Positions 2,524 to 43,886 of a DNA stretch of 43,886 nt are shown here, one piece after another. The stretch is from Verrucomicrobiia bacterium. Its GTDB lineage: Bacteria; Verrucomicrobiota; Verrucomicrobiia; Limisphaerales; DASXHY01. The stretch's first letter is position 1, and each line of letters starts with the position of its first letter. A program made the translations under genes and the position numbers. Below the pieces are notes generated by a model. The model had not been told where the DNA came from, did no database searches, and worked only from the letters and a program-made list of their open reading frames with translations. The stretch is taken from positions 1-43,886 of the forward strand of contig DASPIL010000069.1 in NCBI GenBank assembly GCA_035629175.1, written 5' to 3'.

Positions 2524-2688
2524 AGGCTGCTACCGTCCCGCGATGCAACCACGCTACGCCTCGGCGCGGAATTGGGTGTTTCCCCCCTTCGCGGAGCTTT
2601 GCAATTTGACTATTTGGTCAAGGGTTCTATGGTTCATTCGGTTGCCTGCGACACGATTTCGCCGGACCTTATTTCGTGTTGAAAATTT

Positions 2689-3303: not shown

Positions 3304-3384
3304 CCGATCAAAGTTTTTTTATACTGATACTTGACTAAACGGCCAACTATCGGAGTGTGACAGGCTGACAACAGCGATAGAACC

Positions 3385-4377: not shown

Positions 4378-4400
4378 TTCGGCCAATGATCTGAATCGCG

Positions 4401-6689
4401 CTAAACGATTTCCATCGGGCACTGGGGCATGGCGTCAATGAACGCCTGCCCATATTGCTTCATCAGGATTCGATTATCCAAAACCACAACAATTCCTGAA
4501 TCCGACTTCGTTCGGATCAATCGTCCCACCCCCTGTCGAAATTTGAGGATCGCCTCGGGCAGGGAGAATTCACCAAACGAATTTCCGCCTCGCGCCTCGA
4601 TCGCCTCAATCCTTGCTTCAATCAACGGATGATCGGGAACAGCAAAGGGCAGGCGCGTTATAATGACATTGCTCAACGCCTCCCCTGGCACATCAACTCC
4701 CTGCCAGAAACTGTCTGTGCCGAACAGGACCGAATCCACATCCTCCTTGAATCTCTCGAGCATCACGGAACGGGGAGTTCCTGTGCCCTGGATGAAACAG
4801 GGAATTCCGAGTTCACGGAAAAACGGCTCCATGCGGTTTCCTATGTCCTGCATCAACTTATAGCTCGTGAACAGGACGAATGCCTTTCCGTGCGTCCTGC
4901 GGATAAACGTCTCAATCCAGTGCTGCAGGGCCGAAGCGTAGGTCGAATCGCGCGGGTCGGGCATGCGCTTGACCACAAACAGCTTCATCTGCCTCGCGTA
5001 ATCGAACGGCGTTCCAACCTGCAATTGGATCGCTGATTCCGCACCCACCCGATGCGTAAAATAGTGGAGTGGTGAACTGCTGTTGGTGGCATCGGACTGC
5101 TTAGATGCGAGACGCCGCCGGCCTTGAGCTGGCATCGATTCCGCGGCTTCGGTTCCCTCACTGCTGGCCTGGCCCGCGCGCGTCGCCAGCGTTGCGCTGG
5201 TCATGATGATGGAGGTGTTGCTGCGGAAGAGCCTTTGCCGCAGGTATTCGGCGACGTCGACGGGCGCGGCATTCAGCGCAAGATTCCGCTGCGTTTTCCC
5301 CGAACGTTCAACCCAATACACGTGGCCGCGTGCGCTTTGCTCGAGGAACATGGCGACCTCTTCGCGCAACTCGGCCAGGCGAAGGTTGCATTCGCGGAGT
5401 TCTTCGCCGCTTTCCTTGTCATCGCTCAGCCGGATCAGTTCACTCACAGCCTCGCGCAAACTTTGCAACGGCAGCGTTACGCTATCCTCCACCAGTTCTG
5501 GCCGGCGCACCCGCAACTCGCTCCAATTCCGCAGCGCCGTGGCTCCCGGCCTGCGGTTGGCGGCCTGGTGAATCGTTTCGCACGCGTCCTCCACATTCCC
5601 AAAGAACCGCTCTGTCTCATCCAGCAGTGTTTCGACGAGCAGCGCCGCCTTCCCTTTGACCGTCGCAAGCAGGCCCTTTTTCGTCGTCGGATTCCACAAT
5701 CGGTGCAGCGCATACCGCACCTGGCCGTTCGCGACGCTCAATCCAATGTGTTTCGAAGCCACGCTCTCCATCGTGTGCGCCTCATCGAAGATGACAAAGT
5801 CGTTCGGAAACAGAATGCCTTTGCTGTCGGCATCCTCGTCGCTCAGGCCGAGAAGGGTGAAGAAAAGCGTATGGTTCAAGACCAGCACATCAGAACTGAG
5901 ATACTGCCTGCGGGCGCGCTGATAAAAGCAGACAGGATGATCTCGTGCAAAGTCGGATTGATAGCCGCATTTCTTGGACGAACAGAGCCCCTTTTCGGAA
6001 CAAACCTGTGCCCAAACCTTTGGGTCGGGCTCGATCTCGAAATCAGACACGCTCCCGTTTTCGGTTGTTGCTGCCCAGCGTGCGATGCGGTTCAACTCGG
6101 CTGCCTCCGAGGAGGTAAAAAGATTTCCTGTCTGTTGCAGCGCTTTTTGAAGTCTGCGGGTGCAGAGGTAATTTCCGCGCCCTTTGAGCATGCAATAGCT
6201 GAATTGCAGGGGTTCGTCCATGGCGCCGAGCACAGACGTCAACATGGGCAGGTCCTTCTCGATCAATTGTTCCTGCAGATTGATCGTATGCGTGGACACG
6301 ACGGCCTTCTTCTTGTTTTTGACCGCGAACAGGATGGCTGGAATCAGGTAGGCCAGGCTTTTGCCCACGCCCGTTCCTGCCTCAACCGCCAGGTGCTCAC
6401 CCTCCTGGAGCGCCCGCGCCACTGCGAGTGCCATCGCCTGTTGCTGTGGCCGGTATTCAAAATTCCGGGCGCGCGACAGCACGCCTGTCGCCGAGAAAAT
6501 CTTCTCGACCGTCGCGAGGTAATCGAAACCGGAGGGTTGAACTTCGACTGGCGATATCACCGCGCCCAATATGCCGTTCCGGCCGCCATGAGCGAAATAA
6601 AAACTCGCCCCAAACGTTCGGCAAACCCGTGCAAACAAGGGGTATTCCGCTTCAGCCGGGCAGCGTTCCGGCCGACACCTTTGTGCCAT
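4401..6689 (-). CDS. dinG: ATP-dependent DNA helicase, DinG/XPD-like iron-sulfur type
   Basis: The 762-residue protein is a superfamily 2, 5'-3' DNA helicase of the DinG/YoaA group. Visible motifs are Walker A EAGTGVGKS (103-111), VVSTHTINLQEQL (motif Ia), DEAH (302-305), and the C-terminal FWQGVDVPGE and RQGVGRLIRTKSDSG (motif VI). Between Walker A and DEAH lie cysteines 176, 230, 236, 241 and 254, which supply the four ligands of a 4Fe-4S cluster with one to spare. A serine/glutamine-rich insert of about 50 residues around 530-580 is unusual. The ATG at 6689 lies only 22 bases from the divergent receptor start, so a later start such as GTG at 6560 (before SPVEVQPSGFDYL) is plausible. The probable role is repair or resolution of D-loops, R-loops or G-quadruplexes. 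Confidence 0.93.
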   Translation of the reverse strand: MAQRCRPERCPAEAEYPLFARVCRTFGASFYFAHGGRNGILGAVISPVEVQPSGFDYLATVEKIFSATGVLSRARNFEYRPQQQAMALAVARALQEGEHLAVEAGTGVGKSLAYLIPAILFAVKNKKKAVVSTHTINLQEQLIEKDLPMLTSVLGAMDEPLQFSYCMLKGRGNYLCTRRLQKALQQTGNLFTSSEAAELNRIARWAATTENGSVSDFEIEPDPKVWAQVCSEKGLCSSKKCGYQSDFARDHPVCFYQRARRQYLSSDVLVLNHTLFFTLLGLSDEDADSKGILFPNDFVIFDEAHTMESVASKHIGLSVANGQVRYALHRLWNPTTKKGLLATVKGKAALLVETLLDETERFFGNVEDACETIHQAANRRPGATALRNWSELRVRRPELVEDSVTLPLQSLREAVSELIRLSDDKESGEELRECNLRLAELREEVAMFLEQSARGHVYWVERSGKTQRNLALNAAPVDVAEYLRQRLFRSNTSIIMTSATLATRAGQASSEGTEAAESMPAQGRRRLASKQSDATNSSSPLHYFTHRVGAESAIQLQVGTPFDYARQMKLFVVKRMPDPRDSTYASALQHWIETFIRRTHGKAFVLFTSYKLMQDIGNRMEPFFRELGIPCFIQGTGTPRSVMLERFKEDVDSVLFGTDSFWQGVDVPGEALSNVIITRLPFAVPDHPLIEARIEAIEARGGNSFGEFSLPEAILKFRQGVGRLIRTKSDSGIVVVLDNRILMKQYGQAFIDAMPQCPMEIV

Positions 6690-6711
6690 TCACATCGAGT
6701 ACACGACGACA

Positions 6712-8751
6712 ATGGAGCGAAAGAGAACAAGATCGGCGCTGAAGCATTGCCCGTTTCCGGGGCACGCGCTGGCTGCTGTACTGGCGGTGGGCCTTTCAGG
6801 TTTCACCACTTGGGGCGGACCTGGTCTCAGCGAATTGAAGGAGCTGAGCCTCGAAAGCCTGGCTTCGTTGCGCGTTGACACTGTTGTCGGGGCTGCGAAA
6901 CACGAGCAAAAATTACGAGATGCACCGGCAAATGTGACCGTTCTTACCCGCGAGGAGGTTCAGTTGCATGGCTGGCGAACCCTCGGCGAGGCGCTTCGAT
7001 CGGTTCCTGGCCTGGTTGTGACTCATGATCGCAGCTACAGCTTCCTTGGAGTCCGCGGATTCAACCGCCCCGGCGACTACAGCGGCCGCACCCTCATCAC
7101 CGTGAATGGGCATCGGTTGAACGATGCCATGTTCGATAGCACCTCGGTGGATCGCGACTTCATTCTGGATATCGACCTGATCGAGCGCATCGAAGTGATC
7201 CGCGGGCCGGGATCGACGCTTTACGGCAACAATGCGTTTTTTGGAATCGTCAATGTGGTCACCCGCCGCGGCGCGACGATGGGCGGGGCCGAAGTTTCCG
7301 GATCGTATGGCACGTTCGACACCTACACAGGCCGCCTGAGTTATGGAACCCGGCTGACGAACGGGGTGGAGTTCCTGTTCTCGGGTTCCGTGTACGGGAG
7401 CGATGGAAATCCTCGCCTGTCATTTCCCGAGTTCTCACACCTGGACAATGGAATCGCCAGGAACATGGACGACGGCTGGTCGCGTAGCGCGCTTGGGCAG
7501 GTGAGCTGGAAGGCGCTGACGCTCGAGGTCGGTTATGTGGATCGCTTCAAACGCGTTCCCACGCTCGCTTACACGCTTCCTGAATCCCCGATCATTTTCA
7601 ACGACCGCCGTTTCCGCATTTACGACGATCGCGCGTTCGCCAGCCTGAAGCTCGAACACACCTTTGAGGACGACTGGAAGCTCATGGCTCGCGTATACTA
7701 TGACTACTATCGGTACGACGGCTATTACCCATCCGATTACGAGCCGGATGTGGAGGGAAATCCTTCGACGGTGAACTTCGACCTCGATCGTTCCCAGTCG
7801 TTTGGTGGAGAGATTCAGGTCAGCCGCGAGATTTACGACAAGCACCTTCTCACGCTGGGAGCAGAAGCGCGTTACGATTTTGATTTGACGCTGATCAATC
7901 GCGATCTTGCCCCCGCTGCGACTTATCTCAACACGCAGCAGGACGGATATTTCGCGGGGCTTTTCCTGCAAGACGAATTCCGCATCCTGCCCGAACTCAC
8001 GCTGACTGCGGGCCTTCGGTATGATTATTACGCGGTCGGCGGCGAGACCTTGAATCCCCGCGCGGCGTTGATTTATCGCCCGTGGGATCCGGGAACCTGG
8101 AAACTGTTGTACGGAGAGGCCTACCGTGCGCCGAACGCCAGCGAGAATTACTACGACTGGCCGACCCCGCCGAGCAGCCTGGGCCTTGAACCTGAAACTG
8201 TACGCTCCTACGAAATCATCTACGAACACGAATTGGGACGCACCTGGAGAGCTTCCGCGGCTGTATTCCGAAACGAGCTGAAGAACCTGATCACCGACAG
8301 CGAGGATGGTTTCGCGAACATGGAAACCGCGACTGCCCAAGGCGTCGAACTCGGCCTCACGGCTTTTTACGAGAGCGGCATCCAGGGTCGCGCCAGCTAC
8401 ACGTTTGCGGACGCATACGACGATTCCGATTCCAGCCGCCTGGCCAACTCCCCCGAACATTTGGGCAAGCTCAACATCGCCGTTCCCATCTGGCGCAAGA
8501 AAGTTTTTGCTTCCGCGGAACTTCAAATCATGAGCAGGAGAAAGACTCTGGGTGGTCCGCCTGTGAACGGGCTCTGCCTGCTCAATACGACCCTCTTCAG
8601 CCGGGAGCTCCTGCCAGGACTGGATGCGTCCGTGAGTGTCTATAACCTGCTCGACACGCGTTACAGCGATCCTGCGTCGATGGAATTCGTCCAGCGCTCA
8701 TTGCGCCAGGATGGCCGGCAACTGCGGTGCAAACTGACCTGGAGATTCTAG
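6712..8751 (+). CDS. TonB-dependent outer-membrane receptor
   Basis: The 679-residue product begins with a basic stretch and a hydrophobic export signal (HALAAVLAVGLSGF). A plug domain follows at about residues 60-165: DAPANVTVLTREEV, GLVVTHD, VRGFNRPGDY and IERIEVIRGPGSTLYG. The remainder is a 22-strand beta barrel with alternating aromatic residues, ending in the C-terminal Phe typical of outer-membrane porins. No FecA-like N-terminal signalling domain is obvious. It heads a four-gene operon: the next gene (YfiR-like) begins 1 base after its stop, followed by a histidine kinase and a hybrid regulator. Receptors with this kind of linker, clustered with YfiR and kinase genes, are probably sensors as well as importers; the ligand is unknown. 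Confidence 0.93.
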   Translation: MERKRTRSALKHCPFPGHALAAVLAVGLSGFTTWGGPGLSELKELSLESLASLRVDTVVGAAKHEQKLRDAPANVTVLTREEVQLHGWRTLGEALRSVPGLVVTHDRSYSFLGVRGFNRPGDYSGRTLITVNGHRLNDAMFDSTSVDRDFILDIDLIERIEVIRGPGSTLYGNNAFFGIVNVVTRRGATMGGAEVSGSYGTFDTYTGRLSYGTRLTNGVEFLFSGSVYGSDGNPRLSFPEFSHLDNGIARNMDDGWSRSALGQVSWKALTLEVGYVDRFKRVPTLAYTLPESPIIFNDRRFRIYDDRAFASLKLEHTFEDDWKLMARVYYDYYRYDGYYPSDYEPDVEGNPSTVNFDLDRSQSFGGEIQVSREIYDKHLLTLGAEARYDFDLTLINRDLAPAATYLNTQQDGYFAGLFLQDEFRILPELTLTAGLRYDYYAVGGETLNPRAALIYRPWDPGTWKLLYGEAYRAPNASENYYDWPTPPSSLGLEPETVRSYEIIYEHELGRTWRASAAVFRNELKNLITDSEDGFANMETATAQGVELGLTAFYESGIQGRASYTFADAYDDSDSSRLANSPEHLGKLNIAVPIWRKKVFASAELQIMSRRKTLGGPPVNGLCLLNTTLFSRELLPGLDASVSVYNLLDTRYSDPASMEFVQRSLRQDGRQLRCKLTWRF

Positions 8752-8752
8752 C

Positions 8753-9337
8753 GTGCACCTTACCCGCAATCCTGGTCGAGCGCTGCGCGCAGGACTTTTG
8801 CTCCTGCTGAGCGCCGGCCTGCTGCTGCCTTCGCTGCGCGGGGCTGAGCCGCGTTCTGCGGGCGAGTATCAGATCAAGGCCGTGTTCCTGTTCAATTTTA
8901 CCAAGTTCATTGAATGGCCGGAGAAATCCTTTGCCAGCACGAACGCGCCGTTTGTCATTTCAATAGCGGGTGAGGATCCGCTTGGTGGAATCCTGGACGA
9001 AGTGGTGCGAAGTGAGATCGTTCGCGGCAGGGAACTCGTCGTGAAACGCGTCCGTGCCGGGGAACCCGCGCCTGATTGTCAAATTCTCTTCATCAGCCGC
9101 GCCGAGCGGGATCGGCTCGACGAGTGGGTGGCATCGATGAGCGGAAAGCCCACGCTGCTCGTCGCGGACTCGCCCAAGGCATTGGAACGAGGGGTCATGG
9201 TAAATCTCGTGGTTCGCGACAGCGTCCGGATGGAAGTCAATCCGGCTGCGGCGCAGACGGCGGGTCTGCAAATCAGTTCCAAGCTGCTGAACATTGCAAC
9301 GGTTGTCACTCCGGCCCGCGGCAGTTCCCCTCGTTGA
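8753..9337 (+). CDS. YfiR-like (DUF4154) periplasmic protein
   Basis: The 194-residue protein starts at a GTG one base after the receptor stop. It carries a signal peptide (residues 1-30, leucine-rich LLLLLSAGLLLPSLRGAEP) followed by the YfiR/DUF4154 domain. That domain is recognised by YQIKAVFLFNFTKFIEWP, a central CQILFISRAE strand, and the terminal GLQISSKLLNIATVV. In Pseudomonas, YfiR is a periplasmic repressor that binds the periplasmic part of the diguanylate cyclase YfiN. Here the next gene encodes a membrane kinase with a similar periplasmic region, so the inferred role is a periplasmic switch controlling that kinase in response to the receptor. Translational coupling to both neighbours is likely (1-base gaps on each side). 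Confidence 0.9.
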   Translation: MHLTRNPGRALRAGLLLLLSAGLLLPSLRGAEPRSAGEYQIKAVFLFNFTKFIEWPEKSFASTNAPFVISIAGEDPLGGILDEVVRSEIVRGRELVVKRVRAGEPAPDCQILFISRAERDRLDEWVASMSGKPTLLVADSPKALERGVMVNLVVRDSVRMEVNPAAAQTAGLQISSKLLNIATVVTPARGSSPR

Positions 9338-9338
9338 A

Positions 9339-11288
9339 ATGCGCTCCTTCAAAGACCTGCCCATCCAACGCAAGCTTCTGCTGATGACGCTTGCGATTTG
9401 CGGCGCGGTTCTGCTTTCGGCGGCCGGTGCGTTGTTCGTGTTTCAAATGGTCACGTTCAGGTCTGCATTCCAGCGCGATACTGCAACGCTCGCTTCCATT
9501 GTCGCCAACAACAGCACCGCGGCGCTGGCTTTCAATGATCAGCATGCCGCCGAGGAGGTGCTTGGATCACTGATCGCCAAGCCCACTGTGCTCAGCGCCG
9601 CTCTAACAAGTCGGACAATGGCCCTGGATGCGCGGTTTCGCTCGCGCGATGACCTTGCTGCCTACCCGCCGCCGGGGGTTTACCGCTTCGTTGGCGGCGA
9701 TCTTCTTTTCACGCAGCCTGTGGTCCTTGACGGCAAGGAAGTGGGGAAGCTTTACCTGCGGTCTGATTACCGCGGCGGGCTCTTGAAGTTGCTGCGTTTT
9801 TACGGATTGATCTCGATCGCAGTCGTCACCGTTTCCGTGCTCCTGGCTGGTCTTTTATCCAGCCGCTTCTGCCGCTTCATCACGGACCCGATCCAGAGCC
9901 TCGCTGCAACTGCGAGCACCGTGGGTGAAAGGCATGACTATTCCATGCGCTCGTCGGTGGCCAATCACGCCGACGAACTGGGAGCCCTTGCAGGAGCGTT
10001 CAATCGCATGGTGAGCCGAATTCAGGCGCAGGACGCTGCCCTGACACTTTCGCAGCAGAAGCTGGAAAGCCTAGTCAACTCGCTCGACGGAATTGTGTGG
10101 GAATGGGATCCCGCCCGTGCCGCCTTCGCGTATGTGAGCCGCCAGAGCGAACGCATCCTTGGCTATTCGCCAGAAGAATGGATTTCAGACTCGAATTTCT
10201 GGGAGCGTCATGTTCATCCCGAAGATCGCGTGGAAGCGGTGCAGCGATGCAAACAGGTGGTCGAGCTGCAGCAACCCTACAGTTACGATTACCGGATGAT
10301 CTCTTCCGACGATCGCGTGGTCTGGATCCGGGAAAGCGGGGTCTTTGTCATCGAGCAGGACAAGCCCCTCAGTGTTCGCGGCATCCTCCTGGACGTAACC
10401 AGCCAAAAGGCTGCGGCTGCGGAGTTGAACCAGCTGCACCAGCAGCTGCTGGAAGCTTCCCGGCAGGCCGGCATGGCTGAGGTCGCGACTGGCGTGCTGC
10501 ATAATGTTGGCAATGTCCTCAACAGTGTAAACGTCTCGGCGGGCCTCTTGCGGGATCGTCTCAGCCAATCGGAGCTGCGGACACTCAACCGCCTGGCTGC
10601 GCTGATGTCCGAGCAGAACGGCAATCTGGGTTCGTTCCTGACCGAACATCCGAAAGGACGGCTGATCCCCCAGGCCATTGTCCAGGTCTCGGGCCAGCTG
10701 TCGCGGGAACGGGATTTCTATGTCAACGAGCTCTCGCAGCTGGCGCGAAATGTCGAGCACATCAACGACATTGTGGCCATGCAACAAAGCTACGCGAGAA
10801 TTTCAGGCGTGCTCGAGAGAATCGCCCTTGCGGACGCCGTCGAAGACGCGTTGCGAATTGAGCAGGCGGCGATGGAACGGGCTGGAGTGGAGGTCGTGCG
10901 CAACTTTGCTCCAGTACCGATTGTTACTGTCGATAGACATAAGACGTTGCAGATCCTGATCAATTTGATTCGCAACGCACGCATCGCGATGACTGAAAAC
11001 CATACCGGCAGCCGCCGACTGACTGTCTCCATCGAGCCGATGGATCCGGGCGGCGCTCGCATTGTCGTGCAGGACACCGGCGTGGGCATACCTGCGCCAA
11101 ACCTCACGCGGATCTTTTCGCATGGCTTTACCACCCGCAAGGACGGTCATGGGTTTGGGTTGCACATAGGCGCCCTCAATGCGCGGCAGATGGGCGGATC
11201 GCTGACTGCCGCCAGTGAAGGGGAAGGCCGCGGCGCGGTATTTACACTCACGCTCCCCCTGGAACCGAAAACTGAAAATGTTTTATGA
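9339..11288 (+). CDS. Membrane sensor histidine kinase (CHASE8-like periplasmic region, HAMP, PAS, HisKA, HATPase)
   Basis: I chose the ATG at 9339, one base after the YfiR stop; a 15-codon upstream extension would lie inside yfiR. The 649-residue protein has a first membrane helix at about 12-38. The periplasmic segment 40-148 contains TLASIVANNSTAALAFND, a pattern typical of CHASE8 domains such as that of YfiN/TpbB. A second helix (152-175), HAMP (176-230) and PAS (245-360) follow. The H-box is EVATGVLHNVGNVLNSV with phospho-acceptor His388. The ATP-binding domain has N-box INLIRNA (541-547), DTGVGIP (579-585) and GHGFGL (603-608). The HNVGN-type H-box is usually paired with the type of response regulator encoded next, to which this gene is joined by an ATGA overlap. 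Confidence 0.94.
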   Translation: MRSFKDLPIQRKLLLMTLAICGAVLLSAAGALFVFQMVTFRSAFQRDTATLASIVANNSTAALAFNDQHAAEEVLGSLIAKPTVLSAALTSRTMALDARFRSRDDLAAYPPPGVYRFVGGDLLFTQPVVLDGKEVGKLYLRSDYRGGLLKLLRFYGLISIAVVTVSVLLAGLLSSRFCRFITDPIQSLAATASTVGERHDYSMRSSVANHADELGALAGAFNRMVSRIQAQDAALTLSQQKLESLVNSLDGIVWEWDPARAAFAYVSRQSERILGYSPEEWISDSNFWERHVHPEDRVEAVQRCKQVVELQQPYSYDYRMISSDDRVVWIRESGVFVIEQDKPLSVRGILLDVTSQKAAAAELNQLHQQLLEASRQAGMAEVATGVLHNVGNVLNSVNVSAGLLRDRLSQSELRTLNRLAALMSEQNGNLGSFLTEHPKGRLIPQAIVQVSGQLSRERDFYVNELSQLARNVEHINDIVAMQQSYARISGVLERIALADAVEDALRIEQAAMERAGVEVVRNFAPVPIVTVDRHKTLQILINLIRNARIAMTENHTGSRRLTVSIEPMDPGGARIVVQDTGVGIPAPNLTRIFSHGFTTRKDGHGFGLHIGALNARQMGGSLTAASEGEGRGAVFTLTLPLEPKTENVL

Positions 11289-13435
11289 TGGAAGCCGCAA
11301 GACACACAGGACGGATTCTCATCATCGACGATAACCCGGCCATTCACGCCGACATTCGCAAGATCCTTCGCGGCCAGGATGCCGACAGCGCTGAACTGGA
11401 GATGACCAAAGCCCTGCTGTTCGACGAGGAGCCGGTCGATTCTGTTCGGACGAGCTTCCGCATCGATTCCGCCTACCAGGGACAGGAAGGCCTGGAGATG
11501 GTGAAACGCGCCATTGAAGAAGAGGAACCTTACGCCGTTGCTTTCGTCGACGTCCGAATGCCTCCTGGCTGGGACGGGGTCGAAACCATCGGACATCTTT
11601 GGAACAGCTACCCCGAGCTGCAGGTGGTGATCTGCACCGCGTATTCAGACTATTCGTGGGAGGAAATGATCCGGAAACTGGGCCTTTCTCCGAGCCTGGT
11701 CGTTCTCAAGAAGCCTTTTGACAATGTCGAGGTTCTGCAACTTGCCCATGCGCTCACGGACAAATGGCACCTCAACCGCCAATTGCGCTCGCAGCTGGAC
11801 AACATGGACAACCTGGTGCGCCAGCGCACGTCCGAGCTCGAGACCGCGAACGAGCAGTTGAAGAAGGAAATCGCAGCGCGCATCGAAGCGGAAGGGGTGA
11901 TGCGACTTTCTGAGGAGCGGTTTTCCAAGGCATTCCACGCGACGCCAATTCCATTGGCGATCCAATCGCTCGACACGGACCGGCTCATCGACGCCAACGA
12001 GTCCTTCCTGCAAATGCTTGCCGGATCCCGCGAGGACATTGTTGATCGTTCCCCTGACCAGCTGGGCATGTGGTTGGAGCGGGATTTCGGAAAGGAGCTG
12101 ATTCAGACCCTTCGCCAGCAGCCCGCCATTCGGAATCGCAGTTGCGTGATCCGCAACCTGGACCGCCAACAGCGCCATGCGCTGCTCTCGGTTGAACCTT
12201 TTGAATCCGGTTCAGGGCCCCATCTGTTGATGATCATTCAGGACATCACCGACCACCTGAAACTCGAAAGCGAGCTGCGACAGTCGCAGAAAATGGAAGC
12301 GGTGGGCCAGCTCGCTGCGGGAGTGGCGCACGACTTCAACAACATTCTGACGGCGATCCATGGCCACACCTCCCTGCTGCAGGCGCAATTGTCCACGAAC
12401 GCCACCCAGGCGCGATCATTGACAGTGATCTCCCTCGCGGCTGAACGGGCAACCCGCCTGGTCCGCCAGCTCCTGACGTTCAGCCGCAAGCAGGTGTTGA
12501 AGCCGCAGGTGCTGCAGTTGGATCAGGTCACTTCGAACATGGCCGAAATGCTGCATCACGTCCTCGGCGATCACATTTCGTTGAATGTCACCACCGAGCA
12601 AAACGTACCGCCCACGAAAGCGGATGTCAGCATGATGGAACAGATCATTCTGAACCTTGCCATCAATGCTCGCGACGCGATGCCTAGAGGCGGCACGCTC
12701 TCCATTCACGTTCATCGGACCACGCTCACCAGCGAAACGGTTCAGCGGCATGCCGACATCGTTCCCGGCCAGTACGTCTGTCTCGTGGTCAAGGATACGG
12801 GTTGCGGGATTCCCCCTGAAAACGTATCGCGTGTGTTCGATCCTTTCTTCACCACTAAGGAAATCGGCAAGGGCACAGGCCTTGGCCTCGCCACCGTTTA
12901 CGGGATCGTCAAGCAACACCGCGGCTGCATCGACATTCAAACCGCGGTTGGCGAGGGAACGTCCTTTCACATCTATTTTCCCGCGTCGACCGAAGGATGG
13001 AGTCCTGCGACTCCTGTTGAGCATCCACCCACGACTGCGACGGGAAATGAATGCATCCTCCTGGTCGAAGATGAGGATATTGTCCGATCCATGGCAACAT
13101 CGCTGTTGCGCGGGAGCGGATACACGGTCCTTGAGGCCTCATCGGGCAAGGAAGCGTTGCAGCTGTTTGATTCGCATCGTGACCAGGTGGCCCTGTTGTT
13201 CACCGACATCATGATGCCCGGCAACCTGCTGGGGGACGAACTCGCGACGCGCATCCGTGCCATGAAGCCTGGATTGCCCATCCTGTTCACGTCGGGTTAC
13301 ACGCCTGATCTCGCGAATGTTCAGCTGCGCAAGGACGCATGCTTCCTTTCGAAACCTTTCACTCCGACGCAGCTCCTGATGCAGGTGCGTACCTGTCTTG
13401 ACCGGATGCGCGTGGAACCTGTAGCTCCGGCGTAG
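11285..13435 (+). CDS. Hybrid response regulator/histidine kinase (REC-PAS-HisKA-HATPase-REC)
   Basis: The 716-residue cytosolic protein begins at an ATG overlapping the stop of the preceding kinase gene. An N-terminal receiver (10-150) has IDDN, Asp89 in [21 protein letters not shown] and KKPF. It carries an extra acidic insert of about 30 residues between its first helix and second strand, characteristic of regulators paired with HNVGN kinases. A coiled coil (165-210) and a PAS domain (about 212-325) follow, then HisKA with His349 in [10 protein letters not shown], HATPase motifs [17 protein letters not shown] (504-510) and [13 protein letters not shown], and a C-terminal receiver with Asp641 in LFTDIMMPG and SKPF. 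No DNA-binding output domain is present, so the phosphate must pass to a separate regulator or the output is protein-protein. It closes the operon; the convergent next gene ends 2 bases away. Confidence 0.95.
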
Positions 13436-13437
13436 GC

Positions 13438-14127
13438 CTACTGTCCCGGGGTCGACTGCCGTTCCACGACGGCGATCTCCGCCCGATTCTTCGCCACGCT
13501 GGACGGCGGCAAACAACCCCTCCAGTTCACGCCGGGATAGATGATGGATCCCCGGCCGATGATGCTTCCGGGATTCAGGACGCAATTACAACCCACATCG
13601 GCTCGATCTCCCACGAGCGCTCCAAATTTCCGCAGCCCGCTATCGATCCGTTCGCTGCCTGCCTGCACCTGGACGTTTCCTGGCAGTGACCGGAGATTCG
13701 AAAGGATGACGCCTGCGCCAAGGTGCGCCTTGTATCCGAGGATTGAATCCCCCACGTAATTAAAATGCGGCACCTGGCCCCCGTTCAGAAGCAACGCATT
13801 CTTCAACTCGCTCGAATTTCCAATGACGCAGTCATCGCCTACGATCACGTTCTCGCGCAGATAGGCGTTGTGCCGGATCTGGCAGCTTTTCCCGATGATA
13901 GCCGGGCCCTTGATCATGGCTCCCGGTTCGATCACCGTGCCTTCCCCGATCATGACATCCTTCCCTATGAACGCCTCCCCTTCCACGCGCCCCAGAATCA
14001 CCGGCTTCATATGCGCCGCGATATAGTCCTTGATCCTCTGTAATGCCTGCCAGGAAAAATCCACATCCTCGAAAATCGCGGCATGCTGCGTTTGAGAGAG
14101 GTCGAACAAGTCAGTCGGCTTGAACAT
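13438..14127 (-). CDS. Left-handed beta-helix (hexapeptide repeat) acyltransferase/nucleotidyltransferase-like protein
   Basis: The 229-residue protein is built of hexapeptide repeats forming a left-handed parallel beta helix, for example AFIGKDVMIGEGTVIEPGAMIKG, then IIGKSC, VIVGDDCVIGNSS and LGAGVILSN. This resembles the C-terminal domain of GlmU and related sugar nucleotidyl- or acyltransferases, but no N-terminal nucleotidyltransferase domain is present. The N-terminal 45 residues (SWQALQRIKDYIAAHM) form a helical cap. It probably transfers an acyl group from acetyl-CoA or acyl-ACP to an amino sugar; the substrate is unknown. It is monocistronic, convergent with the signalling operon (2-base gap) and divergent from the molybdoenzyme gene. 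Confidence 0.82.
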   Translation of the reverse strand: MFKPTDLFDLSQTQHAAIFEDVDFSWQALQRIKDYIAAHMKPVILGRVEGEAFIGKDVMIGEGTVIEPGAMIKGPAIIGKSCQIRHNAYLRENVIVGDDCVIGNSSELKNALLLNGGQVPHFNYVGDSILGYKAHLGAGVILSNLRSLPGNVQVQAGSERIDSGLRKFGALVGDRADVGCNCVLNPGSIIGRGSIIYPGVNWRGCLPPSSVAKNRAEIAVVERQSTPGQ

Positions 14128-14265
14128 GCGCGCAGTCTAAGCGGCGGATCAGCGGGAGAAACCAAAAACTTATCGCGAGTTCGGCACGGGTCGACGTTAG
14201 AAAAACCGCTGCGCGCTTTACAGCCGCCTCGGCTGAAGGGATTGTTTGGCAAACGCTGCAGGAAC

Positions 14266-14934
14266 ATGAAGGAAAAATACATCGCCGCGAAAGAGCGCTG
14301 GGCCAGGAAGATGGCTGGCAAACCGGCTTCCACATCGCCCCGCTCCGGGGAGCGCCTGCCTCCTGGCCAGAGGCAGGTCACGAACTTCCCGGTGCTTGAT
14401 TTGGGAATCCGTCCCGATGTTTCTTTGACGGAATGGCGTCTCAAAATCGGAGGAAAGGTCGAAAACCCGGTTAATTTGACCTGGTCTGAGTTCATGGATC
14501 TGCCTCAGTTCAAGGATGTCAGCGACTTTCATTGTGTCACGACCTGGAGCCAGTTCGACATGGAGTTTGAAGGCGTCGCTTTTTTCACCCTCGCTGACCT
14601 TGTCAAACCGCTTTCTTCTGCCACTCACGTGTTTTTCAAGAGTTACGACGGCTATTCGACCAACAATCCCATCGACGTCTGCATGGATGATGACGTGCTG
14701 GTGGCTCATTCGTGGAACGGAAAGCCGCTGACTCCCGACCATGGCGGTCCCGCGCGTGTGATCATCCCAAAACGCTACGCCTGGAAGGGCGCCAAGTTCG
14801 TCCGTGAGATCACTTTCATGGATCAGGACATCCTTGGTTTCTGGGAAGTCCGCGGGTATTCGAACACCGCAGATCCTTGGAACGAAGATCGTTTTGCCAG
14901 GAACGATGATGTTCCACCTGGCTTCTTCACGTGA
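14266..14934 (+). CDS. Sulfite-oxidase-like molybdopterin-dependent oxidoreductase
   Basis: The 222-residue protein carries the molybdopterin-binding fold of the sulfite oxidase/YedY superfamily. The expected Mo-coordinating cysteine is Cys90 in SDFHCVTTWSQFD, and the substrate- and cofactor-binding loops DVLVAHSWNGKPL, GGPARVIIPKRYAWKGAKF and GFWEVRGYSN are clear. There is no Tat signal peptide and no C-terminal dimerisation domain, matching the short soluble sulfite-oxidase-like oxidoreductases of about 200 residues. I chose the ATG at 14266 (preceded by caggaac) because a longer in-frame extension from 14083 reads antisense to the start of the neighbouring gene and looks non-coding. The substrate is unknown. 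A cysteine desulfurase gene begins 3 bases after its stop, which may link it to sulfur supply for the molybdenum cofactor. Confidence 0.88.
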   Translation: MKEKYIAAKERWARKMAGKPASTSPRSGERLPPGQRQVTNFPVLDLGIRPDVSLTEWRLKIGGKVENPVNLTWSEFMDLPQFKDVSDFHCVTTWSQFDMEFEGVAFFTLADLVKPLSSATHVFFKSYDGYSTNNPIDVCMDDDVLVAHSWNGKPLTPDHGGPARVIIPKRYAWKGAKFVREITFMDQDILGFWEVRGYSNTADPWNEDRFARNDDVPPGFFT

Positions 14935-14937
14935 CCT

Positions 14938-16083
14938 GTGCGGACCATTTACTTCGACTACAACGCCACCACGCCGCTCGATGCCAGCGTCCGGGACGCG
15001 ATGATGCCGTTCTTCGGTACCATTTGGGGCAATCCCTCGAGCATTCATCACGTGGGCCGCACAGCACGCGCTCATCTCGACGAGGCTCGCGATCGCAGCG
15101 CTGCAATTCTTGGATGCAAGCCCAGCGAACTGATCTTTACCAGCGGCGGAACTGAAAGTGCAAATCTTGCCGTCTTCGGAGCGGCCAGGATGCTTCAGAA
15201 GAAGGGGCGCCACATCATCACATCGTCAATCGAGCATCACGCCGTCCTGCACTCATGTCGTTACCTCGCTGATCGAGAAGGCTTTGATGTCACGCTGCTG
15301 CCAGTCGATTCCACGGGCCGCGTTTCTCCTGCCGCTTTGCAGTCGGCTATTCGTCCCGACACTGTGCTTGTCTCGATAATGGCGGCCAACAATGAGGTGG
15401 GAACCATTCAGCCCGTTGCTGAACTCGGCGCTTTATGCCGCCACTTGGGCATCATCTTCCACACCGACGCCGTCCAATGGTTTGGAAAGCAGCCTTTCAC
15501 AAACATTCATCAGTTCGAGGCTGATCTTGTTTCGATCTGCGCCCACAAGTTTCATGGTCCGAAGGGAGTGGGTGCCTTGTTCATCCGATCTCCTCTTCAG
15601 CCCGATCCCATCCTGTTTGGCGGCGGGCATGAAAACGAACGCCGCGCCGGAACCGAAAATGTCGCAGCTGTCGCCGGTTTCGTTGAAGCTCTGGAACGCT
15701 TCGTCCCTCGCCCCGTTTTTGATGCTTCTTTCCTATCGCCACTTTCCGAACGACTCATTCAGTCTGCTGAATCCATTCCGGGAGTTCACTTTGCAGGCTC
15801 TCGTGAACACCGCCTTCCCAACACGGTTTCGTTTGTCGTTGAGAACACAGACAGCATCGCCTTGATGGCAGGCCTGGATATCGAAGGTATATGTGCTTCA
15901 AGCGGCTCCGCCTGTTCCGCTGGTTCCCTCGAACCTTCGCATGTGGTTCAAGCTCTCGGTTTTTCTCCATCTCTCTCCAACGCTCTCGTCCGATTCTCGC
16001 TCGGACGCGATTCCTCTCTTCTCGAAGTTGAGCACGTCGAACAGGTCCTCCCCCACATCATCAGGCGCTCACAACGTCGTTAA
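14938..16083 (+). CDS. Cysteine desulfurase, NifS/IscS family
   Basis: The 381-residue PLP enzyme removes sulfur from L-cysteine as an enzyme-bound persulfide for Fe-S cluster, thiouridine or molybdenum-cofactor synthesis. Family hallmarks are DYNATTPLD at the start, TSGGTESAN (68-76), His101 in SIEHHAVLHS, HTDAVQ with Asp177, the PLP-lysine 204 in ICAHKFHGPKG, RAGTEN (236-241), and the catalytic loop ASSGSACSAG with Cys326. The start is a GTG 3 bases after the molybdoenzyme stop, so the two are probably co-transcribed and coupled. No IscU or IscR gene is adjacent, so the acceptor is unclear. The full-length family size and intact catalytic residues suggest an active enzyme. Confidence 0.93.
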   Translation: MRTIYFDYNATTPLDASVRDAMMPFFGTIWGNPSSIHHVGRTARAHLDEARDRSAAILGCKPSELIFTSGGTESANLAVFGAARMLQKKGRHIITSSIEHHAVLHSCRYLADREGFDVTLLPVDSTGRVSPAALQSAIRPDTVLVSIMAANNEVGTIQPVAELGALCRHLGIIFHTDAVQWFGKQPFTNIHQFEADLVSICAHKFHGPKGVGALFIRSPLQPDPILFGGGHENERRAGTENVAAVAGFVEALERFVPRPVFDASFLSPLSERLIQSAESIPGVHFAGSREHRLPNTVSFVVENTDSIALMAGLDIEGICASSGSACSAGSLEPSHVVQALGFSPSLSNALVRFSLGRDSSLLEVEHVEQVLPHIIRRSQRR

Positions 16084-41531: not shown

Positions 41532-42638
41532 ATGGAAACCAGGGATGCATGGGTGGGGTTGAACATGATCGATCACGTCGGGCCGGTTCGGGTTCGACAA
41601 CTTCTGCAGGTCTTCGAAAACCCGGTAAACATTCTTCAGGCAACCAAGGCGCAGTTGCTGCATGTCCACGGAATCGGGGAAGACACCGCGGATGCCATTT
41701 CGAATTGGAAGATCACGATTGATTTGGAGGCTGAGCTCCAACGCATAAATGATTATGGATGCCACGTGGTGACACAGGAGGACGCGGAATACCCTGAATT
41801 GCTGCGTCAAATTTATGATCCGCCACTGGTCCTCTACGTGAAGGGGAATCTCCTCGCGAAGGACAAAAACGGCGTCGCACTGGTCGGTTCGCGGATGACG
41901 ACGCATTACGGGCTCGAAGTCGCACGGAAGCTGGCATACCAGCTCGCCTACATCGGAGTCACGGCCGTGAGCGGCGGAGCGCGTGGCATCGACACCGCGG
42001 CTCATCAAGGTGCCATGGCGGCGAAAGGCCGGACGGTCGCGGTGCTCGGCACAGGCATCAATATTGTGTTCCCTCCCGAGAACGGGGAACTGTTCGAACG
42101 CATCGCGGCCAGCGGCGCGGTCATCACGCAATACCCGTTCAACCGCAAGGCTGACAAACAATCCTTCGCCATCCGAAACCGCATTGTCGCCGGCATGACG
42201 ATGGGCACCGTTGTGGTGGAAGCGAACCTCTCGAGTGGTGCGCTGATCACTTCGAACTTCGCAACAGAGTACGGCCGGCAGGTCTTCGCCGTTCCCGGCC
42301 GCATCGACTCACCGCGGAGCAAAGGCTGCCATGAACTGATCAAGAAGGGCGCGAAGTTGTGCGAAGGGGCGGAGGACATCTTGAGCGAATTTGAATACCT
42401 GTTTCCAACAAGCAACAAGCCACCCGCCCCAAACGAAACCGGCCTCCTGCCCGCGCTGGAGCTTTCCGACCACGAACAGAAAGTCTTCGGCACGCTGGAC
42501 CGCGAGCAAATCACCATCGACGAAGTCATCCGCAAGAGCGGCCTGCCGAGTTCGACCGTGTCCGTGGCTCTGCTGAGTTTGGAAATGAAGCGCCTGGTAA
42601 AGCAACTGCCAGGGAAGTTGTTCGTAAAGAATCAGTAA
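41532..42638 (+). CDS. dprA: DNA-processing protein DprA
   Basis: The 368-residue protein loads RecA onto single-stranded DNA during natural transformation. An N-terminal helix-hairpin-helix region (VGPVRVRQLLQVF, LLHVHGIGEDTADAI) is followed by the Rossmann-like DprA domain (105-290): VALVGSRMTTHYG, VSGGARGIDTAAHQGAM, VAVLGTGINIVFPPENG, FAIRNRIVAGM and FAVPGRIDSPRSKGCHELI. The C-terminal winged-helix DML1-like domain ends VKQLPGKLFVKNQ. Its last 42 bases (42597-42638) have a diverged second copy at 43548-43589, the flank of a tandem duplication. It is divergent from dus; the RAYT follows on the same strand. Confidence 0.95.
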   Translation: METRDAWVGLNMIDHVGPVRVRQLLQVFENPVNILQATKAQLLHVHGIGEDTADAISNWKITIDLEAELQRINDYGCHVVTQEDAEYPELLRQIYDPPLVLYVKGNLLAKDKNGVALVGSRMTTHYGLEVARKLAYQLAYIGVTAVSGGARGIDTAAHQGAMAAKGRTVAVLGTGINIVFPPENGELFERIAASGAVITQYPFNRKADKQSFAIRNRIVAGMTMGTVVVEANLSSGALITSNFATEYGRQVFAVPGRIDSPRSKGCHELIKKGAKLCEGAEDILSEFEYLFPTSNKPPAPNETGLLPALELSDHEQKVFGTLDREQITIDEVIRKSGLPSSTVSVALLSLEMKRLVKQLPGKLFVKNQ

Positions 42639-42646
42639 GTGCGAAC

Positions 42647-42798
42647 GGAGCGCCGACTTGGAGTCGGCTTACGATGAGCGAAACCAAACGCGCGGCAATT
42701 GCGAGGCATGTCAGAATCCAAAGAAGAGAACGACGCCTGCTCGAACTTTGCCAGGTCGACTGAAAGGGAACGCGCTAAGCCGACTGGAAGTCGGCGCT
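42647..42798. repeat. REP-type block, copy A of a 152-bp direct repeat
   Basis: This 152-bp block matches 43599-43750 with 6 mismatches and no gaps (about 96% identity). It is bounded by inverted REP arms: GGAGCGCCGACTTGGAGTCGGC is split here as GGAGCGCCGACT then TGGAGTCGGC on the left, and GCCGACTGGAAGTCGGCGCT on the right, each with a GCCGACT/AGTCGGC hairpin. The right two-thirds also encodes the first 30 codons of the RAYT. The block starts 9 bases after dprA's stop. Confidence 0.9.
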
Positions 42799-43492
42799 CC
42801 GGTGGCGATAGCCGGCCACCTTACAATCGTGGTTTGCAACAGTTGGTGGAAGGCAAACAAAAGTGGGCCCAACGGCTGGACGCTCAGGCAAAGGCGGACA
42901 GTTTCATCGGCTGGCATCAACGCGGATACCTGCCTCACCGCGACAGCCCTGGATTGATTCAGTTTGTGACCTTCCGATTGTGCGACAGCTTTCCTGCTGC
43001 ACGTCGTGGCGAATGGGAGGCGCTTTTGCGAATCGAGAACAACCGCGAGCGGCGCAAGCAGCTGGAGCAGTATCTCGACCCCGGGGGCATGGGCCCTGCT
43101 GGCTAGGCCACGAGCGCATTGCCAGGATTGCGGAATGCGCGCTGCAACACTTTCATGGTGAACGCTACGACCTGCTGGCATGGTTCATAATGCCAAATCA
43201 CAGCCATGTTCTGATGCAGACGCGCGATGTTCCCATGTCGAGAGTGCTCCAAAGTTGGAAGCGCTTCATTGCAAGGGAGGCGAATACAATCTTGCACCGC
43301 GAAGGCCGCTTTTGGGAGCGAGAGTATTGGGACACCTACATGCGCAATGAATTCCAAGCGGTTAAGGCACGAAACTATATCGAGCAGAATCCTGTCCAAG
43401 CCGGCTTGATGAAAGAAGCAAAGGCATGGACATGGAGCAGCGCGCGTTTTCGCGGGATTGATGGGCAGTTGACGTTTGAACCAGCAGGGTAA
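42708..43492 (+). pseudogene. REP-associated tyrosine transposase (RAYT/TnpA-REP), frameshifted
   Basis: Two overlapping frames together make one RAYT of the IS200/Y1 family. The first (ATG 42708 to TAG 43104-43106) supplies WHQRGYLPHRDSPGLIQFVT and FRLCDS; the second, open to 43492, continues RGHGPCWLGHERIARIAECA, then LLAWFIMPNHSHVLMQ (HUH-type histidine pair, here H-S-H), and NYIEQNPVQAGL with the catalytic tyrosine. The join is lost near a C4G5 run (43079-43087), where one missing base explains the shift. RAYTs mobilise REP sequences, and REP arms overlap the 5' end of this gene. Decay, sequencing error in the homopolymer, or programmed frameshifting are possible; decay is the simplest. 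Confidence 0.85.
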
Positions 43493-43534
43493 GCCAGCCG
43501 CAAGCCTGCGCTTTAGATGGAGCCGTTGGAGGGC

Positions 43535-43589
43535 TTACAGATGCAGGGTGAAGCAGCTGCCTGGAAAGATGTTTCTGAGAAATCAGTAA
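43535..43589 (+). pseudogene. Relic of a second dprA 3' end
   Basis: Bases 43548-43589 read VKQLPGKMFLRNQ then a stop, against VKQLPGKLFVKNQ then a stop at the end of the intact dprA (10 of 13 residues identical; 30 of 39 bases identical). Just before it, LQMQ (43535-43546) matches the LEMK of dprA, but five bases are missing between them, so the frame is broken. It sits 43 bases after the RAYT and 9 bases before REP block B, the same order as dprA and block A. Confidence 0.75.
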
Positions 43590-43598
43590 CGGCGAGCC

Positions 43599-43750
43599 GG
43601 AGCGCCGACTTGGAGTCGGCTTACGATGAGCGAAACCAAACGCGCCGCAATTGAGAGGCATGTCAGAATCCAGAGAAGAGAACGACGCCTGCTCGAACTT
43701 TGCCAGGTCGATTGAAAGGGAACGCGTTATGCCGACTGGAAGTCGGCGCT
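43599..43750. repeat. REP-type block, copy B of the 152-bp direct repeat
   Basis: Copy B lies exactly 952 bases after copy A (42647-42798) and is about 96% identical, with the same inverted REP arms. It also reads open from ATG 43660 as the start of a RAYT. Its right hairpin (GCCGACTGGAAGTCGGC) is followed at once by a group II intron end at 43752, whereas copy A continues CCGGTGGCG into the RAYT gene. Confidence 0.9.
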
Positions 43751-43751
43751 A
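43660..43751 (+). pseudogene. 5' fragment of a second RAYT gene, interrupted by the intron
   Basis: The frame reads MSESREENDACSNFARSIER then ERVMPTGSRR, against the start of the complete RAYT MSESKEENDACSNFARSTER then ERAKPTGSRR. It stops at TAG formed across the junction (43750-43752), exactly where the intron begins. The rest of this gene, if it exists, would lie beyond the intron, outside the window. Confidence 0.6.
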
Positions 43752-43886
43752 GTGCGCTTGGGATACAACGCACATCGCAGGGTGAGAGTCCCTGTCTGGC
43801 GGCGCTTCCCGCCAGAGACTGAAGGTAACTGCGGTTCAGAAATGAACCGTGGAGAGCAACTGGAAGTAAACGGATAGTCCGTAGAG
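43752..43886 (+). mobile_element. Group II intron, 5' end (domain I), truncated by the window
   Basis: The sequence begins GTGCG, the classical 5' end of group II introns. AGGGTGAGAGTCCCT (43779-43793) resembles the conserved domain I stretch of bacterial introns such as that of Oceanobacillus iheyensis (recalled, not searched). Three hairpins follow: CTGGCGG/CCGCCAG (43796-43815), CGGTTCA/TGAACCG closed by a GAAA tetraloop (43832-43849), and ACGGA/TCCGT near 43872. GGAAGTAAACGG is also present. The intron starts 4 bases after a REP hairpin. This placement, downstream of a stem-loop, is that expected of group IIC introns. Maturase and 3' end lie outside the window. Confidence 0.82.

Follow-up and report, generated by a model that had tools for sequence, protein, structure and literature searches.

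A second dprA 3' end beyond a RAYT-like gene in a Limisphaerales genome

How does the end of a housekeeping gene come to stand a second time about 1 kb downstream, on the far side of a transposase-like gene? The window, the whole 43,886-nucleotide stretch of Verrucomicrobiia DNA analysed here (GCA_035629175.1, contig DASPIL010000069.1), raises this question at the 3' end of dprA, close to the end of its contig. The locus can be explained as an old duplication, as the work of the transposase-like gene, or as recombination between two diverged versions of one gene end, and these readings are weighed below against related loci in the host's order, Limisphaerales.

Anatomy of the repeated unit

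A first-pass annotation had claimed that bases 42597-42798, the dprA tail with the REP block (REPIN) behind it, recur at 43548-43750 in the same order and spacing. The repeat search bore this out: both parts return 951-952 bases on with the RAYT gene between, making the 952-bp unit a direct repeat by order and spacing. The tail pair (42596-42644 and 43547-43595) covers 49 nt at 76% identity with a spacing of 951, and the REPIN pair (42646-42798 and 43598-43750) covers 153 nt at 96% identity with a spacing of 952, the alignment containing 6 mismatches and a longest common exact run of 48 nt. These figures agree with the earlier ones (96% for the REPs, about 77% for the tails), and the argument drawn from them against one simple recent duplication stands. 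The features are as follows.

41532..42638, + strand: dprA, intact, ending with tail A (PF02481, E 3.5e-75; PF17782 winged helix, E 7.9e-14)
42597..42638, + strand: tail A, the last 13 codons and stop of dprA (VKQLPGKLFVKNQ, then stop)
42646..42798: REPIN A, two inverted REP hairpins (arms 42641-42671 and 42776-42806, about 104 nt apart; repeat search)
42816..43106, + strand: RAYT N-terminal part, first frame (ORF 42699-43106; matches in 85 RAYT loci)
43085..43492, + strand: RAYT C-terminal part, second frame (ORF 42863-43492; PF01797, E 6.2e-6)
43493..43546: 54-nt spacer from the RAYT stop to tail B, with no significant dprA-end match
43548..43589, + strand: tail B, displaced dprA 3' end (VKQLPGKMFLRNQ, then stop)
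43598..43750: REPIN B, 96% identical to REPIN A (repeat search and alignment)
43752..43886, + strand: 5' end of a multi-copy group II intron (boundary placed from the sequence; the contig ends inside)

The two Pfam domains confirm the earlier naming of the gene as dprA, and both tails are in frame to their stops. Tail B scores 46 against tail A, a value reached by 0 of 1000 shuffles of tail B (best shuffle 26), so the likeness is not due to chance. The tails differ at 10 of 39 nucleotides, 7 of them at third codon positions, with 3 residue changes, a synonymous bias (pS 0.83, pN 0.10) measured over 13 codons only. In simulations, so few residue changes appeared in 0.7% of runs when all ten changes were neutral in a dead copy, and in 41% when five were neutral in tail B and the other half synonymous in dprA; the neutral alternatives thus range from 0.7% to 41%. 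The REPIN begins 10 and 11 nt after the stop in the two copies, and the nucleotides in these short gaps are partly alike. Left of 43547, no significant dprA match extends into the 54-nt spacer (the extension score was reached by 267 of 1000 shuffles). By eye, the dprA tails share at most 9 nt in an exact run and lack an identical att-like core. No integrase lies between dprA and tail B: the RAYT is the sole frame given a family, and the unit is too short to hold an integrase besides it. A single extra dprA tail is present in the window before the contig ends. Tail B is a displaced dprA 3' fragment downstream of an intact dprA, with foreign DNA between, the arrangement expected of a displacement scar.

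The gene between the tails had been called a RAYT, and its family holds: it matches Y1_Tnp (Transposase IS200-like, PF01797) at E 6.2e-6, with 26.8 bits against a cut-off of 23, and its second frame carries, by eye and in the expected region, a putative HSH motif (PNHSH) and a candidate catalytic-type Tyr in NYIEQNP. As assembled it is not one open frame, since the frame changes in a G-rich stretch around 43085-43106; this may be a sequencing error. The RAYT start is set provisionally at 42816, the median for matches in relatives; in copy A an open frame inside the REPIN runs on into the RAYT. Of the 85 loci matching the N-terminal frame, 58 have a match that begins downstream of the REPIN and 27 have one that overlaps it, as likeness of REPIN DNA alone could produce; on this count, the idea that RAYT likeness starts only past the REPIN was not kept. 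Inverted REP hairpins lie on both sides of the RAYT, giving four inverted repeats. RAYT or TnpA-REP systems have a GTAG or CGTC tag at the REP foot, according to the excerpted text of PMC3733652. Within 42631-42815, GTAG is absent from both strands, and CGTC is absent from the + strand and present on the - strand, its first match lying between the hairpins.

The group II intron sits 4 nt past REPIN B's outer hairpin, and copy B runs into it at about 43752. Copy B had been thought to continue for 30 codons into another RAYT; these are open codons inside REPIN B, and they end at the joint of REPIN and intron. The rest of a second RAYT, proposed to lie past the contig, did not appear within 9.3-10 kb beyond any of the nine other intron 3' ends in the genome (best E 0.21), one of which may follow this contig. 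The gene content of 21 relatives' dprA loci gave no link between the window's contig (C69) and the nine contigs that start with an intron 3' end. Among the matches listed (40 own-genome matches scored of 77 candidates), the intron has nine left ends and nine further right ends in the genome. All nine left ends show it just 3' of a hairpin, with stems of 7-9 paired bases 3-4 nt away; the test allowed one mismatch, and 2.2% of 500 random sites reach 7 paired bases. An Rfam search of the window end gave no match, and the intron copy on contig C66 contains the catalytic RNA core (RF00029, E 4.2e-9). From its position at hairpins the intron may be group IIC-like, the core match being to group II (RF00029).

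Gene tails beside RAYTs and elsewhere

The dprA unit was compared with RAYT loci of the host's order. The fetched set of 100 loci was not random, consisting of 99 high-scoring loci among the matches listed and one RAYT from the window's own genome (L315), with several loci at contig ends left out; adding the window gave 101, of which 100 have both flanks. A direct repeat across the RAYT is present in 93 of the 100, so RAYTs in this order are ordinarily flanked by a REPIN on either side. Copied gene tails are rarer. The search for other genes with duplicated 3' tails flanking RAYTs, suggested by the first-pass annotation, succeeded at 9 of the 100 loci after curation by eye: dprA, thrS (three loci, all of one RAYT clade), glyA, purD, an M3 peptidase, hsdS and a WCX-domain gene.

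These nine were kept from 36 candidate loci. Two were treated apart: L218, a gene-start case, and L226 (G144), rejected as a tail copy because it is the template/variable repeat pair of a diversity-generating retroelement. The remaining 25 were discarded, being judged by eye to be translated REPIN arrays, spurious frames or weak matches (L216, L220, L221, L222, L231, L236, L240, L243, L245, L259, L261, L264, L270, L277, L279, L291, L293, L299, L301, L302, L304, L306, L308, L309 and L315), and a few of them may be real tail copies.

Without curation, at a score of at least 45, tail copies were found for 10 of 123 RAYT-facing genes against 3 of 382 ORFs from dprA neighbourhoods (Fisher p 8e-5), and adding own-genome ORFs to the controls gave 5 of 449 (p 1.7e-4). 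With the thrS clade counted once, 9 of 122 remain (p 2.5e-4 against 3/382; 5.4e-4 against 5/449), and the 7 hits kept by eye still exceed the uncurated 3/382 (7/123, p 0.003). The control hits were all retained: L163, L144 and L167 in the 3/382, where L144 resembles a paralogue and L163 a spurious frame, and both own-genome hits (L084) in the 5/449. As the controls are general ORFs and not genes that border accessory DNA of other kinds, the excess may belong to accessory DNA in general and not to RAYTs in particular.

For dprA itself, matches were found in 56 of 58 genomes searched, the window's own included, some not full-length; the nearest full-length dprA has 81% amino-acid identity. None of the genomes searched is a close relative with or without the dprA-RAYT unit, and none of 107 other dprA loci has a second tail downstream at the score used (some genomes counted twice; downstream sequence of 61 nt to several kb, the first 4 kb scanned). 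One of these loci, L189, has a weak RAYT-like match (E 0.003). The relatives therefore favour neither tail A nor tail B as the ancestral dprA end.

The fullest comparison comes from thrS, in a sample of 20 loci (19 relatives and the window's own genome) mostly chosen for extra thrS tails or a RAYT. In one genome thrS has three extra 3' fragments with unrelated genes between them, a case without a RAYT; stacked tail fragments occur at thrS in G222 and at glyA. Similar scars surround unrelated genes at thrS, a PIN-domain ORF at glyA and hsdM in the window's own genome. In all 11 thrS pairs compared, dN is below dS. Fragment and intact gene of the same genome differ with dS/dN of 0.19/0.01 and 0.34/0.05 in G222, 0.14/0.04 in G072, 0.62/0.12 in G110 and 0.25/0.05 in G204. 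In G072 they share a 251-nt exact run and are diverged on both sides (the upstream side only about 57 nt), an identical core with diverged flanks being what a single crossover predicts; the fragment in G135 does likewise, with a 39-nt exact run. RAYTs beside thrS fall into two clades, each spanning three families. Genomes sharing a RAYT clade resemble each other no more in the thrS 3' end than over the remainder of thrS, and thus give no sign of a recent joint transfer. When seven displaced thrS tails were compared with 17 intact ones, four had their closest match in the intact tail of the same genome (one by a narrow margin), as local duplication would give.

Origin of the dprA repeat

We consider it somewhat better than even, at a probability of about 0.55, that recombination at the 3' end of dprA left the 952-bp unit as a scar when RAYT-bearing DNA with a diverged dprA end joined the resident dprA-REPIN. 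Two dprA 3' ends would have diverged earlier as working genes, with a REPIN at the same spot behind each. Incoming DNA, carrying a dprA end, a REPIN and the RAYT, would then have recombined with the resident dprA-REPIN in a single homologous exchange, either from a circle that integrated through the tail or the REPIN, or from linear DNA joined homologously at one end and illegitimately at the other. Such an event would leave dprA whole and displace the other tail and its REPIN beyond the RAYT, a passenger in this course of events; the group II intron would have entered the outer REPIN hairpin later. On this view the roughly 4% by which the REPINs differ would date the exchange, and most of the 24% between the tails, largely synonymous, would have built up beforehand between the alleles. 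The anatomy, the synonymous bias and the return of such scars in other genomes are direct observations; which way the DNA moved, whether it was circular or linear, and the dating by REPIN likeness are inferred. Displacement arrays at T6SS clusters (excerpts of PMC5361080) and repeat-driven unequal exchange in transformation (excerpts of PMC3784515) are precedents for the displacement and the exchange. The best-matching block in the window, the REPIN, is 96% alike and not identical, which counts against this explanation.

An old local tandem duplication of the dprA tail and REPIN, its interval already holding the RAYT or receiving it later, would also give a direct repeat in order and spacing, and direct repeats are common across RAYTs (93/100). 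It would have tail B decay while dprA changed synonymously and gene conversion kept the REPINs alike, and the scenario of five neutral changes (41%) and the four of seven thrS tails nearest their own intact tail fit it. Yet all-neutral decay of tail B is improbable at 0.7%, the longer thrS fragments have dN well below dS against the intact gene, unexpected for dead copies, and conversion would have to be confined to the REPIN; we regard this history as unlikely. Assembly could also have played a part, since the second half of the unit lies within 350 nt of the contig end and holds a 153-nt repeat in a genome of 108 contigs. A chimera joining two strains or species in that repeat is nonetheless very improbable: the join of RAYT and tail B lies in sequence where no long repeat was found, the longest exact run between the copies is 48 nt, and scars of like kind occur in independent assemblies.

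A more active role for the RAYT, inserting target-specifically at gene 3' ends in a unit with a substitute tail, like gene-rebuilding islands, would account for the recurrence beside RAYTs at thrS, glyA, purD and dprA and for the two clades at thrS, each across three families. It is improbable given the tails without an identical att-like core and the scars that have no RAYT; the IS200/IS605 family is also said to make no larger target duplications (excerpts of PMC2817692), a statement about that family and not about RAYTs. The earlier idea of an element with a replacement tail is thus half right: an event at the gene end between diverged gene versions agrees with the 9/100 loci and the thrS dN below dS, but nothing shows the RAYT as driver of tail displacement, and a new insertion mode for REP/RAYT units finds no support when scars also surround unrelated genes. 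As REPINs are elements copied by RAYTs (excerpts of PMC8049555), one might further suppose that a mobile REPIN inserted twice, independently, at the same spot behind two already duplicated dprA tails, consistent with the 10- and 11-nt distances. This is hardly credible, because the partly alike nucleotides between stop and REPIN favour common descent of the flank. The recombination scar remains the preferred reading.

Known systems and the meaning of displaced gene ends

Islands borne by integrases enter gene 3' ends and rebuild them, leaving an intact gene with a new tail and the old tail displaced. The dprA locus has the same outcome; it differs in having no integrase and no identical att core. 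REPIN/RAYT systems, as portrayed in excerpts of PMC2817692 and PMC8049555, place a Y1 HUH transposase-like gene between REP hairpins, a REPIN being two inverted REPs, and the window has a candidate gene of this kind in the same setting. The same excerpts stress the two inverted REPs and vertical inheritance, whereas here complete REPINs flank the RAYT on both sides as direct repeats, together with a gene tail. RAYTs are described there as single-copy and vertically inherited, passive transfer by homologous recombination being thought possible but rare (PMC8049555).

The T6SS arrays of V. cholerae are proposed to arise by sequential displacement, perhaps through homology-facilitated illegitimate recombination, in a source that also cites strings of orphaned Rhs 3' regions (excerpts of PMC5361080). 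There too, new DNA displaces part of a resident gene, older pieces remain, the array grows as this recurs and no integrase is in evidence; here, by contrast, housekeeping genes (dprA, thrS, glyA, purD) serve as anchors, the pieces left behind show no obvious use, and a RAYT or unrelated genes make up the cargo. Merodiploids formed by transformation (excerpts of PMC3784515) similarly depend on a repeat shared by donor and chromosome for unequal exchange and duplication, but those duplications span about 100-900 kb between repeats, against about 1 kb and diverged alleles here. In the literature covered (titles and the starts of abstracts, subscription papers mostly outside), no description of gene-tail copies beside RAYTs or at thrS ends was found. 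Read in this way, the dprA repeat is a new form of the displacement scars already known.

The similar scars in relatives suggest that recombination has put such units and other genes next to the ends of ordinary genes. Tentatively, certain housekeeping 3' ends in the host's order (thrS above all; glyA, purD and dprA) might be landing pads that need no integrase. Cassettes such as RAYT-REPIN units, a PIN-toxin pair and surface-protein genes might build up there through homologous recombination; each would arrive with its own version of the gene end and shift the previous one further out, leaving a readable, time-ordered record of capture, and even RAYTs, thought to be vertical, could travel in this way. 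Displaced gene tails, if formed in this way, would be a direct, searchable footprint of RAYT transfer. From stacked thrS ends one could read in what order genes were captured at a chromosomal hot spot lacking any integrase, and the arrival of genes next to core genes would become testable by sequence alone.

The dprA end and its REPINs

The window covers the whole of contig C69, which belongs to a 5.41-Mb genome (G000) in 108 contigs and terminates within a repeat. Near its end, the window carries the following features in order:

41532-42638: dprA, intact, ending in tail A (its last 13 codons and stop)
42646-42798: REPIN A, after dprA
Between REPIN A and the spacer: RAYT, with a frame change near 43085-43106
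54 nt: spacer, separating RAYT from tail B
43548-43589: tail B, a displaced second dprA 3' end, beyond the spacer
43598-43750: REPIN B, beyond tail B
43752-43886: first 135 nt of a group II intron, inside which the contig stops

The first-pass annotation described tail and REPIN as repeated in a 952-bp tandem unit, and the order and spacing of the two copies, A and B, are exact. Six mismatches separate the two REPINs over 153 positions (96% identity), and the dprA tails share 76% identity over 49 nt, a likeness above chance (0 of 1000 shuffles reach its score). Homology of copy B to dprA begins at 43547, and a candidate extension to the left was rejected, being matched by 267 of 1000 shuffles. 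The frame change in RAYT sits in a G-rich run. It could reflect a natural frameshift that disrupts the gene or an error of sequencing, two cases that look alike here.

A REPIN flanking both sides of a RAYT is not special in this order. In a sample of 101 loci, comprising 99 top-listed matches, one other from G000 and the window, a direct repeat spans the RAYT in 93 of the 100 with both flanks (E <=0.01), by eye mostly the REPIN. The REPIN A/B pair is close; among scored candidates, other long genome matches to this REPIN reach 69-72%.

Copy B had also been said to continue for 30 codons into another RAYT, a claim that did not hold: these codons are the interior of REPIN B, and a stop codon falls where the intron begins. 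In copy A, the same frame continues into RAYT. Of 85 loci in relatives, 58 show RAYT-frame likeness only past the REPIN, and in the other 27 it already starts within the REPIN, so open codons inside a REPIN do not establish a second RAYT. A scan of 9.3-10 kb past each of the nine other intron 3' ends in this genome detected no RAYT (best E 0.21).

Nine intron 5' ends in G000, in the window and on contigs C85, C46, C33, C66, C107, C67, C74 and C70, are 99-100% identical. A REP-like hairpin (7-9 paired bases) lies 3-4 nt before all nine, compared with 2.2% of 500 random sites, and REPINs seem to be the landing sites of this intron. In Pseudomonas putida, a table in PMC1525189 places two of nine group II introns at REPs.

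Copied gene tails with and without a RAYT

A copied gene tail across a RAYT is uncommon and recurrent. Genes were taken as ORFs of at least 150 aa, and a tail copy as recurrence of the last 25 codons within 2 kb at a fixed score of 45, uncurated. Tail copies were detected in 10 of 123 RAYT-facing genes versus 3 of 382 ORFs of dprA neighbourhoods (Fisher p 8e-5), these controls being ORFs at large rather than genes facing other accessory DNA; the reversed-sequence null gave 0 in both groups at this score. Adding own-genome ORFs brought the control to 5/449 (p 1.7e-4), and collapsing related thrS loci to one left 9/122 (p 2.5e-4 against 3/382, 5.4e-4 against 5/449). Counting only hits accepted by eye gave 7/123 against the uncurated 3/382 (p 0.003). 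An extra set of 179 ORFs from loci L086-L105, which shares genomes with the first control and was left out of the control sums, contained one match >=45 (L088).

The nine loci accepted by eye involve dprA (the window), thrS (L239, L251 and L263, with a Pfam name on L251 only), a fused rpiB-glyA with two copies (L295), purD (L305), an M3 peptidase (L253), hsdS (L229) and a WCX-domain gene (L286), the last five named by Pfam. They are not the same set as the ten uncurated hits: the nine include L253 and L263, whose scores fall short of 45, and leave out L231, L277 and L308, which were dropped despite scoring above it. By eye, among the matches listed, a RAYT adjoins thrS in at least six genomes; the thrS tail also lies on the RAYT's far side in five of six (L239, L251, L263, L320 and L321) and is absent there in L319. 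The RAYTs of these six loci form two well-supported clades (100/98 and 100/100), with three families each.

At L229 (G216:C340, 650-1957), the hsdS 3' end occurs in three copies around the RAYT, and a REP hairpin lies within the hsdS coding end. A mirror case (L218/L114, G051:C58) has a gene start, 38 identical nt, on the outer sides of the RAYT unit, the copied start to its left and the intact gene's own start to its right. One candidate, L226 (G144:C485:3000-7400), was rejected as a diversity-generating retroelement (18 of 19 differences at template A); its variable repeat ends a formylglycine-enzyme-like gene, and a RAYT is located between this target gene and the RT-like ORF, both named by eye.

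Tail-copy scars are not confined to RAYT neighbourhoods. At L295 (G211:C35:2000-6400, 772-1541), a PIN-domain toxin-like ORF and its small upstream partner lie between two extra glyA tails, and on G000 contig C42 (L084, 1285-3439) 73 nt of the hsdM tail are copied at 77%, ~330 nt downstream, with no RAYT crossed. Genome G222 (L316, G222:C9:118000-136000, 2309-15309) carries an intact thrS followed within 13 kb by three thrS 3' fragments of 142, 186 and ~128 codons. The last fragment is frame-shifted, and the pieces are separated by unrelated accessory genes (surface-protein-like, LysR/hydrolase and DUF7309). No integrase was found among seven ORFs scanned at this apparent accretion site.

Origin of the displaced tails

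Seven of the ten differences between the window's tails fall at third codon positions, and three residues are changed. So few residue changes arise in 0.7% of simulations if all tail changes were neutral in a dead copy, and in 41% if only five were, so the 13-codon tail B is indecisive on coding divergence. The longer thrS fragments are clearer in appearing to have diverged as coding sequence: against intact thrS, dS/dN is 0.19/0.01 (186 codons) and 0.34/0.05 (142 codons) in G222, and 0.14/0.04 (133 codons) in genome G072, and dN is below dS in every one of 11 thrS comparisons, which include fragment-versus-fragment pairs.

Other comparisons weigh against the gene-end recombination favoured below. 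A subset of 7 displaced thrS tails was set against 17 intact tails, and 4 of the 7 proved closest to the intact tail of the genome they come from. Genomes with a common thrS-side RAYT clade were not unusually similar in their thrS 3' ends, and their RAYT stretches have diverged roughly as much as thrS, so any joint movement would be old. Among 57 other genomes compared, none is nearer to this one than the same order; the dprA relatives that carry a name come largely from verrucomicrobial MAGs (Pedosphaera, Limisphaerales, subdivision 3).

Both RAYT-REPIN units and displacement scars of such a type have been described before, each on its own; a literature search, mostly without subscription papers, found no report joining the two, nor of stacked thrS ends in this group. 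Parallels to the dprA and thrS scars appear in two papers, one putting displacement arrays down, with "perhaps", to homology-facilitated illegitimate recombination (PMC5361080), the other concerning transformation, in which shared repeats lead to unequal exchange (PMC3784515).

In G072, a stretch of 251 nt is identical between the fragment and the intact thrS (counted by eye), with diverged sequence upstream (~57 nt) and downstream, the pattern that two alleles would leave after one homologous exchange; at L239, the exact run is 39 nt. In the window, the REPIN would take the place of this core, with 96% identity instead of 100%. Neither an integrase nor an identical core inside the dprA tails was found at the window's dprA unit. 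Taken with the coding-type divergence, clearest in the thrS fragments, and the exact-core signature, this leads us to favour, from sequence comparison, homologous recombination anchored at gene ends, in which the RAYT would travel as a passenger.
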